Notes under the pieces: model-generated | The model's input: the letters and a program-made list of their open reading frames with translations, nothing else | Told to the model about the DNA's origin: nothing | The model's database searches: none | Program-made: the position numbers and the translations under genes | IMG/VR virus record: IMGVR_UViG_3300046010_002315 | Span: 1 to 23,036 of that record | Strand: one strand, 5' to 3' | From: a virus | DNA length: 23,036 nucleotides | In this document: positions 11,290-23,036 of the stretch, piece by piece | Layout: the number at the start of each line of letters is the position of its first letter | How positions within the stretch are numbered: position 1 is the first letter of the stretch

Positions 11290-13341
11290 TTAAGTTACTG
11301 AAATGTTGACGGTTGAACCAATTCGAGTAGTTACTGGAACATAACCATTAGCAACTGAAACTTGAATAATTGAAGCGCTATTTGTGTATACGGGCAAATA
11401 GCTGTATGAAGCGACCAAATCGTTCCAAGTAGGCGGTGCTCCCGGGCCTGCAGATTTCAAAATTTGACCAGAAGTCCCGTAATTTGGAGTTGGACCAACG
11501 CCTAAATTTCCGGTAAGAATTGCGGATGGAACAGTTAATGTTCCCGTCATCGTGCCACCAATAAGTGGCAAATAACCCCCGGATGGAATATAGGCAATCA
11601 CCCACGAAGTACCGTCATAGACTTTCATGGTTGAAATCACTGAATTAAAATATAGATTGCCTGCAACCAATCCGCCACCGCTATTGTTAGTACTTGGGTC
11701 GGTACTTTTGCTCCCTAAATATTGGTTGTTGAAGTTGTTATACGTTGCGAGGGTGTCTGTTGCAAATGTCGAAGCAGATGTTGCACTGCTCGCAGAGGCC
11801 GTTGCACTATTATTTGCGTTGGAGGCACTAACCGCAGCTGCGGCAGCCGAAGCTGAAGCTGTAGTGGCTGAACCCAAAATGCCGTCAACGTAAGTCTTAG
11901 TTGCTGCGTCTTGAGCATTTGTGGGGTCACCTAGCCCAGTTATCTTGCTTGCACCCATTGCAATAACACCGCTCATAGTGCCGCCAGTTAAACTGAGTTT
12001 AAGCCCCAAAGCTGTATCAACTTGTGAAGTTGTATATGCATTGGTGATGTTGTATCCAGCGAGGGTCGTTGGGTTAGTTCCTGCAGTGACGCGGCCGTAC
12101 GTGTCAACAGTCATTGATTGGTAAGTAGCGGCACTTACACCTGTGGTGGCTAAGTCAATGTTGTCTGCGTTCACAACAATACGGCTGCTTGAAGCGGTTC
12201 CAACATCTATGGTATTTCCGGTCTTTGTTAATCCAAGACCCGCAGTAATTTGACCCGCACCAGAAAATTGTGTCCAAGTAATTGCAGTAGTTCCAAGTGT
12301 TCCGCCAGGGGCAACCGTACAGACATAACCATTGTTCGCGTTAATCGTGCCGACCTCGACAAATACAAACGCTGCGGGCAGCTCAGTCCAGGTATCTGCA
12401 TCTGTTGTACGAGTCCAAGTGCTGACTGAGCATAAATAGATTCCGTTGTTGGCCGTTGTGCTTTGATCCTTCACCAGCACACGATCGCCTGCGCTTAAAG
12501 CAATACCGTCTACAGTCTGAGTTCCACTTAACGTAATGTCGGCAGTAGTGGCCACGCGGCATGAGCCTTTAGCGTCTAGGCCCTGGGACAACGTATCAAC
12601 ATAAGATTTAGTAGCCACGTCTTGAGCTGCAGTTGGGTCACCTACTCCCGTTATTTTTGAAGTACCCATCGCAATAGCACCAGACATAGTGCCACCCGAC
12701 AAACTTAACTTAAGACCTAAACCAGTATCGGTGTAGTTTTTAGTAGCGGCGTCTTGTCCTGTGCTGGGCTCGCCAAGACCAGTAATTTTGAACGTGCCCA
12801 TTGCAATAGCGCCGGACATGGTGATGGCTGCGAAGGTTGATGTGCCACTTGACACTACGTTACCAGTGAGATTTCCAGCTACGTTACCTGTTACGTTGCC
12901 GGTCAGGTTACCTGTGACGTTACCAGCAAGTGATCCAGTAAAACCTGAGCTTGCGCTTACCGTAGTGAACGCACCGGTAGATGGCGTAGCGCCGCCAATA
13001 GGCGTGCCGTTGATCGTGCCACCGGTGATTATAGTAGTCGAGCCAAGCGAGGCTGTACCGGTTACCGTCAAACTGGTAAACGTTCCGGCCGCTGCTGTGC
13101 TCGCGCCAATGGGGGTGCTATTTATCGTAGAAGATGTAATTGTCAGTGCCTGCAAAGCGGCAGAGGCTGTCATAGCCGTGCCAGCGGAGTTGATCATCGC
13201 CACCTTGTAGCCATTGGTGGCCAAAGTTGGGAGTAGCGCGAAGCCTGCAGTGATATTTTCAAGCTCAGCCCGAAGCTGCGCTGAAGAGCCAGGAGAGTTA
13301 GGCGTTGGGTAAGTTGTGTGGTTGTAGTAGCTATTGCTCAT
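11290..13341 (-). CDS. Tail fibre protein, modular
   Basis: Tail fibres contact the host surface. This 683-residue protein starts at an ATG overlapping the upstream stop (ATGA) with GAGG nearby. Modules in order: a probable virion-attachment N-terminus (1-60, SNSYYNHTTYPTPNSPG), Gly/Thr-rich beta-helix-like repeats (60-165, including tandem TGN[VL] tetrapeptides), two copies of an IAMGxxKITGxGDPxxxQDxATK repeat (about 174-250), a module with DRVLVKDQSTTANNGIY and an AITWTQFSGAGQIT end (250-375), a third repeat copy (about 445-487), an Ala/Ser/Asn-rich helical stalk (487-525), and a C-terminal part (to 683) with TPNYGTSGQILKSAGPG. These modules recur in many phage fibres. The absence of a clear chaperone domain suggests a separate assembly protein. 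Host specificity cannot be read. Confidence 0.85.
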   Translation of the reverse strand: MSNSYYNHTTYPTPNSPGSSAQLRAELENITAGFALLPTLATNGYKVAMINSAGTAMTASAALQALTITSSTINSTPIGASTAAAGTFTSLTVTGTASLGSTTIITGGTINGTPIGGATPSTGAFTTVSASSGFTGSLAGNVTGNLTGNVTGNVAGNLTGNVVSSGTSTFAAITMSGAIAMGTFKITGLGEPSTGQDAATKNYTDTGLGLKLSLSGGTMSGAIAMGTSKITGVGDPTAAQDVATKSYVDTLSQGLDAKGSCRVATTADITLSGTQTVDGIALSAGDRVLVKDQSTTANNGIYLCSVSTWTRTTDADTWTELPAAFVFVEVGTINANNGYVCTVAPGGTLGTTAITWTQFSGAGQITAGLGLTKTGNTIDVGTASSSRIVVNADNIDLATTGVSAATYQSMTVDTYGRVTAGTNPTTLAGYNITNAYTTSQVDTALGLKLSLTGGTMSGVIAMGASKITGLGDPTNAQDAATKTYVDGILGSATTASASAAAAAVSASNANNSATASASSATSASTFATDTLATYNNFNNQYLGSKSTDPSTNNSGGGLVAGNLYFNSVISTMKVYDGTSWVIAYIPSGGYLPLIGGTMTGTLTVPSAILTGNLGVGPTPNYGTSGQILKSAGPGAPPTWNDLVASYSYLPVYTNSASIIQVSVANGYVPVTTRIGSTVNISVT
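11881..12008 (-). repeat. Repeat copy 3 of fibre unit
   Basis: Codes for the third unit (VIAMGASKITGLGDPTNAQ, then DAATKTYVD), separated from the first two by an unrelated module of about 190 residues. The flanking GLKLSL[ST]GGTMSG string is also repeated. Confidence 0.7.
12592..12822 (-). repeat. Repeat copies 1 and 2 of fibre IAMGxxKITGxGDP unit
   Basis: Two units of about 90-130 bases (about 12729-12822 and 12592-12720) code for near-equal peptides with AIAMGT and KITG, then a D/EP and QDxATKxYxD. A third copy lies apart at 11881-12008. They look like module duplications in the fibre gene. Confidence 0.7.
12852..12932 (-). repeat. Tandem TGN[VL] tetrapeptide repeats
   Basis: Residues about 137-164 of the fibre read as repeated four-residue units (GNVT, GNLT, GNVA), visible in DNA as a 12-base period with ACGTTACC- and GGTTACC-type cores. 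This is probably beta-helix or shaft structure, not a CRISPR. Confidence 0.65.
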
Positions 13342-15380
13342 CTCAGTCCTCGGCGAGGGGTGTAGTGAACAATGATGCTGTTCACCGTGAATTGCGGAAA
13401 GAGGTCAGAGTTGGATGAAATACGTACTGAAATGTTTTCGGCAGTACCCGTGACTTCAATTTCTGATGGAGAAATATCAGTACCGTCCCAAACAAAGTTA
13501 TCCCAAAGCATCGAATCCCAAAAACCTGACCTTAGATCGTTCTCATAGGTTTCGTCTTGCGGCTGATCAATCGTGGAAGTTCTGTATCCCAGGTCATAAC
13601 CAAATTGAATTTCGGTGTACGAGTCGCCAGTTAACTCGACGCTCGCTTTACGGTAGCGCTTAAGTAGCCTAGGTGATCCAGTCGCGTTAAAGACCAAGTT
13701 AATGTTGGCCGGAATGTTGTCGCCATCAAAGCTCGTGCCGGCGTCAAGGCGGTAGACATAACCATTTGTGGACCCAAAGAACTGCGAAGTGTTGCCCGTT
13801 GGTGTCTCTCCTTCCACGCAACAACTGACAGGATGCGCAAACTGCACAGGCATGCTTCCAAGCAGCTTGCCATTTAGCACAGTCATATAAAGTGCATTGC
13901 CGTTGGAGAAGAAAATCCGGTACTGGCCCTTGTCCCGATTTACTAGGCTTCCAACAGTTGCATCTCGATTTTGCTGAATAAAAGGCCGCAAGTTCATTGT
14001 CAATGAGGCTGGTAAAAAGTTACCGAAGTTCAGCGTTGTGCCCAAACTGACAATCCCACGGTCATCCAGCACATAGGCTTGATCCATGTTTTGCGCGGTA
14101 TAAGCAATTGCGCCTGTACCGGAATTAAATGTAGACAAGCTGAAGTTAGCTGAGCTTGTGCCATAAAGAACTGAAGTGTCCGATCGGGTGTAAACCGCAA
14201 GGGCTCCACTGGTTTGATCACCGGGCAGAGTTAAAAGGTTTGTAACCTGTGCGTTCATCGCCAACTCCCCTGCTCCAAGTAGCGGAGACCACTGGTACGG
14301 ATAGCCCAGGCCCGAGAACTGCAATGAGGCACCAAAACTCAAAAACAAATGCTGTTTATGAAAAACAATGTGATTGGGCGTATCAACCGTCATGCCCGTA
14401 GCAATAGGAACAAAGGTTGTCCCATCAAATTCAAACGCACGGTTAACACCGTCAACGCCGTAGATTTTGTAATTAGCCGTGCCGCCACCAAAGTTGGCAA
14501 CCACCGTTTCATACCGCCCACTTGGCAACAATGTGATCTGAGTTGCCGCGGCGCCCGCCTTAGCTTTGATACCACCGCCAACTGTCAGATTCTCGCCACT
14601 TATAAAATTTCCTGTGGAAGATGAAAGAATTAATCTCCCGGCTGCAGTGCCCGCACTAGTGGTGCCCGACTGCAGCACAACGCGGGCTACCACCCCAGTT
14701 GCGCCGCTTGTTGCACCCGTAACGGTATTACCGTCCGAGATCAAAGCGGTACCCGAGTTGAAGCTCAATTCTTTGCCAAGCGTGACTACTGTCCAGCCGC
14801 TGCTGCTTGATTTGTAAAGGACTGCTGCCGTTGCGGCTGAATTGTTTCGCCAGGCATACACAACACCGTTGTAGTAGCTCACGCCCAAAATCGAGCCTGA
14901 GCCCGGAACTGCGGTGATGTCTGCGCGGTAGTTGTCTGCGGCTAAACTTTGGTACGTCGCATCCGTCAGCCCATCGGCCGATACGCCCTGCACAGTTGTG
15001 ATGGTTGCCACATTGATGGAGCTGACCCGAACAAGCTCTCCAGTAACAAACGTCCCTGTCTCGCGTGTAATCACGATGCTCGTCGAATCAACGTAAATCA
15101 CAACGCCCGTTGCTGCAGAGAGCGCTCCGGTAATGGTGTTACCCACAGTCACTGCTGCAACAAAGGTGCAAACAAGTAAGTTGTAGGTAGCATCAGATGG
15201 ATTGGGCCGGCCGTCAAAACGCTCATAGCCTGCAATTCGCGTGTAGCCACCCGTAATACTGCACTCAAAATTAGTTGCGCGCCTCGCCACCCCTGAGGGC
15301 AACGACAGCGTAGGTGTTACTTGATCAAGCCCCCCGCCAAGTTTAATCAGGTCGTATTTGACGGGGACTGCTTTAAACAT
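13338..15380 (-). CDS. Large beta-rich tail protein, nozzle-like
   Basis: This 680-residue protein follows the adaptor, where short-tailed phages encode the tail nozzle (T7 gp12, P22 gp10). The N-terminus has KLGGGLDQVTPTLSLPSGVA (about 13-32) and ITGGYTRIAGYERFDGRP (42-59), features I associate with a recurrent podovirus tail-protein family. The body is almost all beta strands. Two insert-like modules with G-x-TxTGAxSxATGVV (about 77-100 and 212-232) look like paralogous beta domains. The C-terminal third carries nozzle-like strand pairs and ends YTPRRGLR. The start is three bases after the adaptor stop with only a weak ribosome site. The next gene begins inside its stop (ATGA). Tail nozzle or hub is inferred from order and fold character. 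Confidence 0.7.
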   Translation of the reverse strand: MFKAVPVKYDLIKLGGGLDQVTPTLSLPSGVARRATNFECSITGGYTRIAGYERFDGRPNPSDATYNLLVCTFVAAVTVGNTITGALSAATGVVIYVDSTSIVITRETGTFVTGELVRVSSINVATITTVQGVSADGLTDATYQSLAADNYRADITAVPGSGSILGVSYYNGVVYAWRNNSAATAAVLYKSSSSGWTVVTLGKELSFNSGTALISDGNTVTGATSGATGVVARVVLQSGTTSAGTAAGRLILSSSTGNFISGENLTVGGGIKAKAGAAATQITLLPSGRYETVVANFGGGTANYKIYGVDGVNRAFEFDGTTFVPIATGMTVDTPNHIVFHKQHLFLSFGASLQFSGLGYPYQWSPLLGAGELAMNAQVTNLLTLPGDQTSGALAVYTRSDTSVLYGTSSANFSLSTFNSGTGAIAYTAQNMDQAYVLDDRGIVSLGTTLNFGNFLPASLTMNLRPFIQQNRDATVGSLVNRDKGQYRIFFSNGNALYMTVLNGKLLGSMPVQFAHPVSCCVEGETPTGNTSQFFGSTNGYVYRLDAGTSFDGDNIPANINLVFNATGSPRLLKRYRKASVELTGDSYTEIQFGYDLGYRTSTIDQPQDETYENDLRSGFWDSMLWDNFVWDGTDISPSEIEVTGTAENISVRISSNSDLFPQFTVNSIIVHYTPRRGLR

Positions 15381-17229: not shown

Positions 17230-18291
17230 TTAAAGAGCAGTTACGCCGGCTTCGATACGAGCCATAAAGGCATCGTTCAAGCGGACAGTGGCAAACCAAG
17301 TGGATGCACCGACATAACCGAACTGACCCAAGGGGTTAGCGTGATTGGTCTGGCTGGCTTTGAGCACAACAGGCTTAATTGCTGACATGCCTTTAAGCGC
17401 AACTTGGCCCCATGCGTCTTCACCAATGATGATGAATGGGTATACGTCAACGCTTGTGCCGCCAACTGACAACATGCCGCTTGAGCCAACGCTTGCACCG
17501 GCCGCTGCAAATGATTTGAGCAGCGGTGAGGAGATGAAGCGGAAGTCTTCGCATGCGCCAACTTCGCGGTCATGGATTGGCTTAAATGAGCCATACTCTT
17601 CAACGCGTGTGAAGCCGGGTAAGTTGCGAATGTCAGACACGGCATCTGTGTGAACAAACACAATGTATGAAGGCTGCACAGCGCGTGTACCAAAGTTGAC
17701 ACCAGGGGCCAAGCGTGAGGTCACGCGGCGAGCTCGATTGGACTCAAGGGTACGAGCCGATTTACGCAAAGCGTTTAAGCTGACGGGCGTGTTCACTGCT
17801 GCTCGGCTAGAGCCGTTAGCGTAGATCACCGTTGAGCCAGCCTTCAAGACGCCGTAGCGAACCATCTCCATCACCTCAGCAAGGGTCTCGCCCGTGAGCT
17901 TGACCATTTCGCCAGGAATGTCGTCTTCGTACAGTTGCTCAACCTTGCTGGAGTACTTGAAAAGCACGCCATATTGTTGTAACTGAACAGAAACGTCTTG
18001 GAACGAGATCGTATTGGAGTTGGGCGTTACGCCCTCGGCCAATACAAAATTACTCGCTGTAATGTCAGGCGTACCAACATATCGAGAGGTATTCTCAATT
18101 GTTGTGCCAGAGGTGGAAGCGCCAAAAGGCAAAGTGCGACGGAATACCAGAGTATCTGTCGAGTTTTGCGGCATTTCGCGTTGTGTACCAAAGTCACCGA
18201 GGACGGTGATAGGTTGGGCGTGCTCAAGCATGCCCTGTGCCGCACGAATTAGATTTCGCGATGCACTGGTGCCATAGTTTTGAATGGACAT
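17230..18291 (-). CDS. Major capsid protein, N4 gp56 family
   Basis: This is the shell protein of the head. At 353 residues it fits the N4-gp56 family of HK97-fold capsid proteins. Hallmarks seen are the N-terminal fold-start with a REMPQNSTDTLVFRR segment (39-53), the E-loop-like SRYVGTPD stretch, and the C-terminal GQFGYVGASTWFATVRLND block (about 322-340), which is the strongest family signature I recognise. The start ATG has an AAGGAA Shine-Dalgarno nine bases upstream. The gene follows scaffold after a 27-base gap and precedes two small head genes that each have strong ribosome sites. There is no delta domain or protease site visible at the N-terminus. Annotation is confident from sequence character and position. 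Confidence 0.93.
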   Translation of the reverse strand: MSIQNYGTSASRNLIRAAQGMLEHAQPITVLGDFGTQREMPQNSTDTLVFRRTLPFGASTSGTTIENTSRYVGTPDITASNFVLAEGVTPNSNTISFQDVSVQLQQYGVLFKYSSKVEQLYEDDIPGEMVKLTGETLAEVMEMVRYGVLKAGSTVIYANGSSRAAVNTPVSLNALRKSARTLESNRARRVTSRLAPGVNFGTRAVQPSYIVFVHTDAVSDIRNLPGFTRVEEYGSFKPIHDREVGACEDFRFISSPLLKSFAAAGASVGSSGMLSVGGTSVDVYPFIIIGEDAWGQVALKGMSAIKPVVLKASQTNHANPLGQFGYVGASTWFATVRLNDAFMARIEAGVTAL

Positions 18292-19249: not shown

Positions 19250-19450
19250 TTAATCCTCCGGTTCAGCGGCTACACCCCGAGTTGCCTGATTAGGCAAGTC
19301 GAGAATTCTTTTAAGTAATCGGATTTCGCCGCGAAGCGCGGCGGTTTGGTTATCTGATAGATCAGCGTCGTTCTTAAGACGCGCTTTATCTAATTCAAAC
19401 TGAACCCAGCGGTGTAACTGGTGCCAACCTGGGGTGCTGAAATCAAGCAT
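19250..19450 (-). CDS. Small hypothetical phage protein (66 aa)
   Basis: I do not recognise this protein. It begins MLDFSTPGWHQLHRWVQ and ends in an acidic, Pro-containing tail. The middle (about residues 17-50) is a charged amphipathic helix with regular Leu spacing (LDKARLKND, LRGEIRLLKRIL), so a helical hairpin or coiled coil is likely. An in-frame TTG at 19465 would add five residues (MCPFF). I prefer the ATG at 19450 because a predicted promoter just upstream would place the RNA start only about nine bases before the TTG. No good Shine-Dalgarno supports either start. A terminator follows the stop directly. Position before scaffold suggests a head-assembly or packaging accessory, without sequence proof. 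Confidence 0.6.
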   Translation of the reverse strand: MLDFSTPGWHQLHRWVQFELDKARLKNDADLSDNQTAALRGEIRLLKRILDLPNQATRGVAAEPED

Positions 19451-19480
19451 AAAAAAAGGACACAAGTGCCCGTGAGATGT

Positions 19481-19512: not shown

Positions 19513-19887
19513 TCATTCCAAGAACCTCAACTTGTAAAGCGTTGACTGATAAAGCGAGACCGCTTCATCAATTAAGTTATGAAGCGCTGTTTCACTGCGC
19601 TTACAAATTTGCTCGCGACTGTCTTCAATCCAAGCCATTTGCTGTTCAAGTACATCTGCAATTTCTCCAGCATAGTCATTCTCCAATAATGGGATATCAA
19701 GCAATTCGTTGTAACGCCCTTGGTAAGCTTCAGCAAAAGAGTCAGCGCGCTCCACAATGCCTTCATAAAAAATTCCAAGCGCCATGTGAGCGGCAAAGCT
19801 GCCAGGGCCTGATGCCTTTAAATGTGCACGGTGAGCCATGTCCCGTGCCAAAAATAAAAGGGCTACATAGCGGCCTGCCTCTTTCAT
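19513..19887 (-). CDS. Four-helix protein with Dps/ferritin-like ligand pattern
   Basis: This 124-residue protein starts at an ATG that overlaps the preceding stop (TGATG). Predicted helices run about 4-25, 30-57, 67-87 and 95-120, a four-helix plan. His22, His34, Asp49 and Glu53 have the same spacing (12, 15, 4) as His51, His63, Asp78 and Glu82 of E. coli Dps, four of its five ferroxidase ligands. The fifth, Dps Asp67, falls on Gly38. The surrounding AH...G...AxH...F...DxxAE pattern aligns without a gap. I recall related phage proteins of unknown function (I believe the DUF5856 group, not certain). It is shorter than Dps (about 167 aa) and lacks the Lys-rich N-terminal tail. A structural or metal-binding role in the head module is inferred. 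Iron oxidation is a hypothesis. Confidence 0.72.
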   Translation of the reverse strand: MKEAGRYVALLFLARDMAHRAHLKASGPGSFAAHMALGIFYEGIVERADSFAEAYQGRYNELLDIPLLENDYAGEIADVLEQQMAWIEDSREQICKRSETALHNLIDEAVSLYQSTLYKLRFLE

Positions 19888-20258: not shown

Positions 20259-21533
20259 TTATTTGGTTGGGTAGAGATTGACCCAAGGGTTATCTGGGTT
20301 TTGGTTCGAGCCGCCGTAATAGTTGCCTGTCACGCCTGAAAGCTTTGCCGCGTCAGTAGTGTTGATGGCATTGGTAGTCACCCCATTAGGCTGACCAGAA
20401 CTAGTGGGCGGGAACATTGTGTAGTTATAGACACCCGCTGCAATTGCTGCTGCAGGCCCTGGGTATGCGGTGCCGTCTGGCCCGTACACAACACCAGTGG
20501 AAGATGCTCCAGAAGTTGCGCCTAGGCCACTTGTGTTTGTTGCCCCAGTTGAGACAACGCCAGAGCCAGTCGTAAGACTTGGCGAAGAGTTAGAGGCGTT
20601 TTTTGATTTCAGAGCAGCGAGCTGCTTTACCAAATCTTGATAGCTTGTGTTTAAAGTGCCGTATTGAGTATTGAGCAAACCAATTTTTGTATCGTAGCCT
20701 CTGGTCGTATCGGCCAGTTTGGTTTGTAGTGCCGTGTTTGCATCGGTCAAGGTATTGAATTTATTTGCTGTATTTAAGCGGCTTTTAATATCCGCTAAAT
20801 TCCAGCCTGTAACTCGTGCGATGTCTTCGGGCTTCCATCCCGCCGTTCCTATTTTTCTGGCGTAATCGGTGTCGTCCTTACCCGTATTGGCCGTAAAGTA
20901 ACCCCCGACATCTTTGGCCAGGTTGTATCGACTCAATACATCAGCCTCGCTTACCCCATAGGCATCAGCAATATCTTTTGCTGAATATTTCATCTCATCC
21001 ATTTTTTGAAGAATGGCGTAGTCGCTCATGCCTGGCGCAAAAGAGCTAAGAATTTGCTGTTTGCGAGTTGGCGCTGCTGTTTGAGTAAGTGCAGTGTTAG
21101 CAGACACACCAGTGGTCGCCGTAGTGGTAGCTGCTGTGCTGGTCGGGTTGTTGGCAAGAACCGAGCTGCCACCAGGCGCACCGCTAAAGTCGCCTCCAAC
21201 AACTGAGCCGCTCCCGCCTGTACTTGACGATGTGTCTATCGCATCAGCAATTAATCCAGTTGGCTGGTTGCTTACAACAGCACCTGAGCTGGCTGCCTCA
21301 TTGCCAAAGTTAACACCAGCCGTTGAGAAATAGTTATTGATCTCGTTGGCGTTAAACCCAGTTGCACGGATCAAGTCATCCATGCTTACGTTGTTTGCTC
21401 TTGCCGCCTCCGCAATAGCGTTTGGATTATTGATGTTGCTCTGTACATAAGACTTGATCGTGTCGTCTGACACCTTAGTTGGGGTGCTAGCCGCGGGGCT
21501 CATATCTTCGTAAACATTGTTTCTAGTGGCCAC
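20259..21533 (-). CDS. Virion-associated protein with degenerate helix-turn repeats and coiled coil
   Basis: I do not recognise a named family. The protein (424 aa) starts with GTG at 21533, preceded by AAGGGG at good spacing. An ATG ten codons later is the alternative start. Three related helical units can be seen: around residues 35-70 (DLIRATGFNANEINNYF), 180-205 (DIADAYGVSEADVLSRY) and 236-257 (DIARVTGWNLADIKSRL). Each has a helix, a G-x-hydrophobic turn and a second helix, like a small helix-turn-helix. Ser/Thr/Gly/Ala-rich linkers separate the first two. Residues about 258-310 look like a coiled coil (repeated LNTQYGTLNTSY pattern), then a Gly/Ser/Thr-rich tail ends in an Asn/Pro/Tyr-rich segment. 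Its place between portal and capsid genes suggests a head or internal virion protein. A DNA-binding role for the repeats is possible but unproven. Confidence 0.7.
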   Translation of the reverse strand: MATRNNVYEDMSPAASTPTKVSDDTIKSYVQSNINNPNAIAEAARANNVSMDDLIRATGFNANEINNYFSTAGVNFGNEAASSGAVVSNQPTGLIADAIDTSSSTGGSGSVVGGDFSGAPGGSSVLANNPTSTAATTTATTGVSANTALTQTAAPTRKQQILSSFAPGMSDYAILQKMDEMKYSAKDIADAYGVSEADVLSRYNLAKDVGGYFTANTGKDDTDYARKIGTAGWKPEDIARVTGWNLADIKSRLNTANKFNTLTDANTALQTKLADTTRGYDTKIGLLNTQYGTLNTSYQDLVKQLAALKSKNASNSSPSLTTGSGVVSTGATNTSGLGATSGASSTGVVYGPDGTAYPGPAAAIAAGVYNYTMFPPTSSGQPNGVTTNAINTTDAAKLSGVTGNYYGGSNQNPDNPWVNLYPTK

Positions 21534-21544
21534 GGTTTAACCCC

Positions 21545-23036
21545 TTATATTCCTGATCCAGCGACCAACTTAAGTCGTTGCTCTGCGGCGAAGAGTTCCT
21601 TCTTGCCGCGCTCTTTGATGGCCGTGTCGGCCAACTTGGCTTTGATCTGTTCCAACGTCATGTTCTGGTTGTTGGAAAGCTTGAGCATCTCGATCTCGCG
21701 ACTCATCTGCAGTTCAGCCATACGCATCTGCGCTTGTTGCTGCGCGATCTGCTGGCGGGTTTGAAGCTCCATCATGTCGCTTTGGTTCTGCACCTTGGCT
21801 TGCTCCATCGTTGACTGAGCCCTGATCTGCGCGGCCACTAGTCTTGGATCTTGTTGCTGGCCTTGCTGCGCTGCTTGCTTTTGCTGTTCCTTGATTTGCT
21901 CGATCTCCTCGTCTGACTTAAACACCTCAGCCGGGTCAATGTGCTGCGCTTGAAGAGCTTTCTCAAATAACTTTTTAGTGTCCAAATAGACTCCGTAAAT
22001 TGGGTTAGCGCCTGCTGCCAATAAATTTAAGAAGCTTTGGTTCTGGATGTCCCGCACTAGAAGCGCTGAACTGCCCCGTGCATCGATGGTGAAGTCGCCT
22101 TTAACTTCCTCATCCTCGTTGTACATCATGTTGTAGTCGTAATACCGCTTGATGTGGGGCTTGGTTATCATGTCATCGAACTGCTTGACTAAGCGGCGAA
22201 GGACCACGTTGCTGTTATTCATCAAGAGCTGCATGCCGCCTACTGTATCGGGCGCACTTCCCTTCTCTCCCTGCATAAGCATGGGCACACCAGTCTCTTG
22301 GTCAGCAAGCTCTGCTGCCATCTTGATAATGGCTGAGAGCTCTGCTTGATGCGAATTGAACTCAAACGTCGTGAACGCTTTACGCACATCGTCCACATCA
22401 TCACTTGCGTACCAAATCTTGCGGCTACTGAGCTGCCACTGCTTATCGGCCGGCTGAATGGTGCCCGCCTTAATCACAATCTGCGGACCACTGGAAACCC
22501 CAGCGTTATCCATCATCTGACGCCAGGCGGCGTTTAATACTTTCTGTTGTGCCCGCATTAAGTACGGAATGCCGTAACCCCAGCAACTGCCCGAGACTTT
22601 CTCCCACACAAAAAAATCATATGGGATATCACCGTTCTCAATCGGATTTAAAAACGCCTTGACCACAGTGGAGTTGATCACCACCACACACGCGCTGATA
22701 GTTTTAAGCTCATCGTTCTCTTGGTCGATTCCTTCAACGCCTGAGGCAAGCAAATCTTCTTTGTCAATTTCACCCCAGTATTCCCACACATCGTAGGTCG
22801 CCTTGGTCTGATCGCGTTCGGTCTCGTCTCGTAACTCCTGGAGCGTGGCGCTTCTCTGAGGCCCCTCTTCCAGAACTTTTCGAATCTGCTCTTTCATATA
22901 ACCAGGCTGCTTGGCCAAGTCCCTCACTTGCTTGGCCGTCATCTGAGTGCGCTCGTAGATGCCTTTACCGTCATGAATGTCCTCACCAGCCGCCGGATCG
23001 GGCCAACAGTTGCGCGGGTCAACTCTGAAGCTTGCA
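21545..23036 (-). CDS. Portal protein, P22-like (5' end outside window)
   Basis: The portal forms the dodecameric ring at one capsid vertex, through which DNA enters and leaves and to which the tail attaches. The frame is open to the window edge, giving 496 visible residues and no start codon. The visible N-terminus carries the VDPRNCWPDP segment (residues 5-14), like the DP-rich segments of P22-type portals. The middle is a mixed alpha/beta body. From about residue 395 on it becomes a long Gln/Ala/Met-rich helix, with repeated QQQ, AQIRAQ and AQMRMAELQ stretches, resembling the C-terminal barrel helix of P22 gp1. It ends with TAA and a clear AAGGGG Shine-Dalgarno sits just before the next gene. 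Being first in a head operon fits. The terminase genes should lie just beyond 23036. The family call rests on recalled sequence character, not on a search. Confidence 0.85.
   Translation of the reverse strand, partial: ASFRVDPRNCWPDPAAGEDIHDGKGIYERTQMTAKQVRDLAKQPGYMKEQIRKVLEEGPQRSATLQELRDETERDQTKATYDVWEYWGEIDKEDLLASGVEGIDQENDELKTISACVVVINSTVVKAFLNPIENGDIPYDFFVWEKVSGSCWGYGIPYLMRAQQKVLNAAWRQMMDNAGVSSGPQIVIKAGTIQPADKQWQLSSRKIWYASDDVDDVRKAFTTFEFNSHQAELSAIIKMAAELADQETGVPMLMQGEKGSAPDTVGGMQLLMNNSNVVLRRLVKQFDDMITKPHIKRYYDYNMMYNEDEEVKGDFTIDARGSSALLVRDIQNQSFLNLLAAGANPIYGVYLDTKKLFEKALQAQHIDPAEVFKSDEEIEQIKEQQKQAAQQGQQQDPRLVAAQIRAQSTMEQAKVQNQSDMMELQTRQQIAQQQAQMRMAELQMSREIEMLKLSNNQNMTLEQIKAKLADTAIKERGKKELFAAEQRLKLVAGSGI

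Follow-up and report, generated by a model that had tools for sequence, protein, structure and literature searches.

Dps is a bacterial iron-oxidising DNA-protection protein whose metal site is formed between two subunits; E. coli-type Dps, though not all Dps, also carries a lysine-rich N-terminal tail for DNA binding. Full-length Dps is encoded by phages as well, Gratiaviridae among them, and defence against oxidative damage has been proposed as its role (PMC8008677). The T4 gene rI.-1 (MobD.6), in turn, is mostly treated as no more than an accessory to lysis inhibition (PMC6832632). Its product is annotated DUF5856 (the gene is called rI.-1 in RB49 and others), a family for which our full-text literature search found no paper and whose entries are labelled 'unknown function' or, misleadingly, 'starvation-inducible transcriptional regulator'. 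Here we describe a 124-residue member of this family encoded in a 23,036-nucleotide stretch of viral DNA (IMG/VR record IMGVR_UViG_3300046010_002315, the window). An earlier note, made from the sequence alone, took the protein for a shortened phage relative of Dps, and profile homology, a predicted four-helix bundle and a ligand set kept in homologues all support that reading.

Re-reading of the ORF bore out its boundaries and the residue numbering given previously (H22, H34, G38, D49, E53). Its ATG lies at 19887, and the start overlaps the stop of the upstream 119-residue gene as TGATG, such that the two genes may be translationally coupled. The protein (pI 4.9) matches Pfam DUF5856 (PF19174; E 2.9e-14, 54.3 bits against a gathering cut-off of 34.6) and phrog_858 (E 3.1e-17), the source of the transcriptional-regulator label, and it holds all residues that are invariant across DUF5856 (H22, H34, A36, Y41 and D49). 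Both profiles were matched by 51/51 members of our working alignment, eight of which also matched phrog_3636, labelled 'DNA binding protein' (best E 8.2e-7); the window protein matches the latter weakly (E 0.0077, residues 8-53). When an Ackermannviridae homologue was used as the tblastn query, at least 1,467 phage records were found to carry the family, including T4, Kuttervirus, Jiaodavirus and jumbo phages, and scans of IMG/VR added many podovirus loci. A scan that used a related phage protein as query matched two MAG contigs. A cellular origin was not upheld, and the window protein had no plasmid match.

The relation to Dps emerges at the level of profiles. Searching solved structures with the window protein as a single sequence returned no relative, and a family profile was needed: against PDB sequences, its best 12 matches were all Dps-type or Dps-family proteins, HP-NAP coming first (E 2.6e-4). 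Profile-profile comparison with nine Dps gave E 8.8e-7, and hhalign with first-sequence columns gave E 5.6e-9 and a score of 55.6, as compared with at most 19.4 for 100 column shuffles and 13.3 for the reversed profile. In the hhalign alignment, H22, H34, D49 and E53 pair with H51, H63, D78 and E82, which are among the invariant columns of the nine aligned Dps. Pfam Ferritin (PF00210) had no match to the family, whose relation to it takes profile-profile comparison to see, and neither Pfam nor NCBIfam assigns DUF5856 to the ferritin family. Taken together, distant homology of the window protein to Dps is well supported, and we regard it as nearly certain.

We then considered the predicted structure. 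AlphaFold2, run as a monomer on the family alignment, returned a four-helix bundle (pLDDT 96.6, pTM 0.90) with helices at residues 2-23, 30-59, 76-94 (76-89 and 91-94, with a break at 90) and 100-122. The best VIA-align match was MsDps2 (Z 15.0, rmsd 2.3, 122/124 residues), with Dps chains making up most of the list, and the best Foldseek matches were likewise Dps, at a probability of 1.00 and modest E values (0.011 up). Since helical bundles can attain a high Z by chance, the structural match was weighed jointly with the sequence profile. On this basis, the fold is predicted to be a ferritin-like four-helix bundle with Dps as its closest structural match.

The window protein thus shares with Dps (E. 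coli Dps, HP-NAP) a four-helix bundle, the H51/H63/D78/E82 ligand columns and profile similarity, yet it differs in several respects. It is indeed shortened, at 124 residues versus 167 in E. coli Dps, and residue 1 of the model lies over Dps residue 30. Helix A begins at residue 2 in the model, leaving no Dps-type lysine-rich N-terminal tail, and residues 60-75 are modelled as coil, where Dps has the short helix of the BC loop. Moreover, it has Gly in place of Asp67 and Leu in place of Trp52. Judging from the model, which lacks both the BC-loop helix and the lysine-rich tail, the protein may depart from Dps in how it assembles and in DNA binding. Because helix 30-59 is unbroken and places His34 and Asp49 ~22 Å apart (15 × 1.5 Å; monomer model), a site using all four ligands would need two subunits, as in Dps. 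Like the full-length Dps of other phages, this is a Dps-type protein carried by a phage; however, whereas the Dps of Lactobacillus and Streptomyces phages are detectable with E. coli Dps as the query, DUF5856 forms a separate, shorter lineage. The novelty lies in a misleadingly named Dps lineage that is compact and lacks the tail, rather than in a new kind of system.

Conservation was counted over 49 non-redundant sequences, including podoviruses, T4-likes, Ackermannviridae and jumbo phages. H22, H34, A36, Y41 and D49 are present in every one of them, E53 in 48 and H19 in 46, so the His/His/Asp/Glu set singled out earlier is kept among homologues. Neither outcome that the earlier note had named as refuting its reading, a different predicted fold or homologues devoid of this set, was observed. 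Glu53 is replaced by Gln in a single relative (L032:5001-5354), which offers a naturally altered form of the putative metal site.

The earlier note had relied on a gapless fit to the 12/15/4 spacing of the Dps ligands. This fit is true of the window protein, whose H22 lies over Dps H51 without a gap in hhalign, but it does not extend to the family: residues 27-29, in the A-B turn, are missing from 42/49 relatives, which consequently have an H22-H34 spacing of 9, and a spacing of 12 is confined to a minority (the window and its nearest relatives, RB49 and a handful more). The A-B turn of the window protein is accordingly three residues longer than that of most members. We therefore dropped the gapless fit as proof of kinship with Dps; it is partly luck, and conservation is the stronger evidence. 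A chance match of the spacing was itself ruled out by the conservation, by hhalign against its controls, and by counts of the pattern H-x11-H-x14-D-x3-E, which occurred in 43/100,000 shuffles of the window protein and in 2/3,057 non-family ORFs of the fetched loci. A bare pattern match is also ambiguous, because His19 sits 12 residues before His34 in members lacking residues 27-29; in these shorter members, either H19 or H22 could be the ligand, H22 being the fully invariant one. HP-NAP also has HxxH at this place, and the family profile puts H22 on its second His.

As previously stated, the fifth ligand position (Dps Asp67) is Gly38 in the window protein. T4 has Asp at this position, and RB49, phiR1-37 and ValerieMcCarty04 have Glu. 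The position also varies in Dps itself, with Asp in 5/9 of those aligned, and thus Gly38 alone does not exclude the window protein from Dps. T4 rI.-1 belongs to the same family over its whole length and has the same invariant residues as the window protein, differing from it in having Asp rather than Gly at position 38. Of note, in T4 rI.-1 (L136:1501-1887) all five Dps ligand positions are present (H, H, D, D, E).

Table 1. Features of the window at and around the Dps-like gene, with codons of the mapped residues.
Feature	Position	Strand	Evidence or remark
680-aa protein, adjoins SU10-type adaptor gene	13338..15380	-	phrog_5107 'amidase', residues 531-675 only
Major capsid protein	17230..18291	-	phrog_1357, E 6.4e-59
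Probable scaffolding protein, 289 aa	18319..19188	-	no family match; position before capsid gene in fetched loci
71-aa ORF between Dps-like and scaffold genes	19250..19465	-	no family match; conserved in 28 fetched loci
Compact Dps-like protein (DUF5856 / phrog_858), 124 aa	19513..19887	-	Pfam, phrog, AlphaFold2, structure matches
Glu53 codon (aligns with Dps Glu82)	19729..19731	-	48/49 conserved; hhalign
Asp49 codon (aligns with Dps Asp78)	19741..19743	-	49/49 conserved; hhalign
His34 codon (aligns with Dps His63)	19786..19788	-	49/49 conserved; hhalign
His22 codon (aligns with E. coli Dps His51)	19822..19824	-	49/49 conserved; hhalign column pairing
His19 codon (near-invariant; one helical turn before His22)	19831..19833	-	46/49 conserved
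Upstream gene, 119 aa	19887..20246	-	no family match; relatives in 19 loci
424-aa protein gene, between portal and 119-aa gene	20259..21533	-	found in 8 loci
Portal protein, SU10 type	21545..22942 (listed ORF)	-	PF23899, E 1.2e-11; phrog_332, E 3.2e-36

In the window, the gene adjoins portal and capsid genes, whereas that of T4 adjoins rI. In our first scan, a portal match lay upstream in 70/80 loci (26 of the SU10 type and 44 of the DSL-LC05 type), several of the remaining ten starting too close to the gene for a portal call, and scaffold and capsid genes lay downstream wherever the locus was long enough and similarity was detectable. The two portal types showed no cross-match by tblastn; two podovirus groups thus hold the Dps-like gene between portal and scaffold/capsid. 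Elsewhere, it follows rI directly (T4-likes), precedes the endolysin gene (Caulobacter phages) or lies 1-3 genes after the tail completion gene (Ackermannviridae), so the gene is mobile between modules. The head-module location noted earlier consequently holds for podoviruses and fails for T4-likes and Caulobacter phages. Around it, the 424- and 119-residue genes come and go while the Dps-like gene persists; a single-sequence model of the 119-residue neighbour was unreliable (pLDDT 46), so the 'beta-rich head protein' of the earlier note is a tentative label. The portal frame (21545-23036, minus strand) runs on without a stop far upstream of the listed ATG, and the matches begin at position 185 or 224 of the portal profiles; the N-terminal part of the portal thus probably lies outside the window. 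The 680-residue protein looks like a tail protein by position.

Homologues have also been recovered from virions. In CsCl-purified ValerieMcCarty03 and 04, gp108 and gp100 were found by mass spectrometry with 26 and 27 spectra, in preparations totalling 135-153 proteins (PMC13119998), and gp217 of Sajous1, termed Ferritin by Phyre2, was found with 10 spectra (PMC10892097). Both gp100 of ValerieMcCarty04 and gp217 of Sajous1 are DUF5856 family members, which puts homologues in virions, purified on CsCl, of a Kuttervirus and of a T4-like phage of Klebsiella, with the caveat that such matches could be contaminants. The label 'phage structural protein' borne by g280 of phiR1-37 is an annotation only.

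Given that the metal residues of Dps are kept and that relatives occur in purified virions, the protein may guard phage DNA or virus particles against iron-driven damage. Our best reading, which we hold to be probable, is of a compact, tail-less Dps with a putative metal site between two subunits that limits Fenton damage. Two subunits would pack about a two-fold axis, with His22 and His34 (perhaps also His19) of one facing Asp49 and Glu53 of the other, so that each dimer would hold two Dps-like di-metal (ferroxidase) sites and might form part of a larger shell. Made alongside the head proteins, it would oxidise or sequester Fe(II), probably with peroxide, and thereby limit Fenton damage to phage DNA or virions in late infection; in some phages, it may be carried in or on the particle. 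Against this reading stand the change of Asp67 to Gly38, the missing BC-loop helix and lysine-rich tail, the placement outside the ferritin family by Pfam and NCBIfam, the members found outside structural operons and the chance that the virion matches are contaminants, and we found no biochemistry for any DUF5856 family member. An extension of it, which we consider unlikely, is that a minimal Dps lineage has spread through tailed phages (T4 among them) and that virions contain it as a functional metal centre, which would shield the genome inside the particle or during entry against Fenton damage; T4 rI.-1 would then be an iron/redox protein tying oxidative state to lysis timing.

The same observations could conceivably describe a protein of the virion or of its assembly that has a ferritin-like fold but no ferroxidase activity, its His/Asp/Glu set binding a metal for structural reasons (e.g., zinc) or holding together a dimer interface. 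Consistent with such a protein are the position of the gene, flanked by portal and scaffold/capsid in two podovirus groups that lack any portal cross-match, the homologues in virion proteomes and the unconserved fifth ligand; yet the invariant residues exactly match the catalytic site of Dps, T4-likes hold the gene apart from the head genes, and the position, proteome and ligand data do not locate the protein in the particle. We judge this unlikely, though the foremost of the alternatives. Virion incorporation also underlies the proposal, made for Vi01-like phages, that an iron-loaded virion part aids adsorption via iron uptake receptors (the Ferrojan horse), as the 'ferritin' gp217 of these phages belongs to DUF5856 (PMC10892097). 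However, infection by Sajous1 showed no dependence on TonB or FeoB, Salmonella tonB and feoB mutants being infected with similar efficiency (PMC10892097), there is no sign of the protein on tails, and podoviruses have the gene beside the portal, making this highly improbable for the family.

The T4 neighbourhood points in another direction, namely that the protein regulates lysis timing, with rI.-1 acting with rI/rIII and iron or redox sensing as a possible input. The DUF5856 gene of T4 directly follows rI and, in the account of Golec et al. 2010 given in PMC6832632, excess rI.-1 slightly delays the collapse of lysis inhibition. That effect is small and was seen on over-expression; moreover, RaK2 carries the gene although T, RI, RI.1 and RIII appear to be absent from it (PMC3622015), and the window phage has it in a head module, all of which render such a function improbable.

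Reading the family as compact Dps with a conserved putative metal site offers a testable function for a T4 gene whose lysis phenotype is unexplained, and allows a direct test of whether phage particles contain protection of their own against iron or oxidative damage. Incidentally, structure matches in BFVD included uncharacterised proteins of Pithovirus LCPAC404 and Fadolivirus, as well as a 'DNA-binding protein' of SU10, and Dps-like folds may thus be widespread in viruses.
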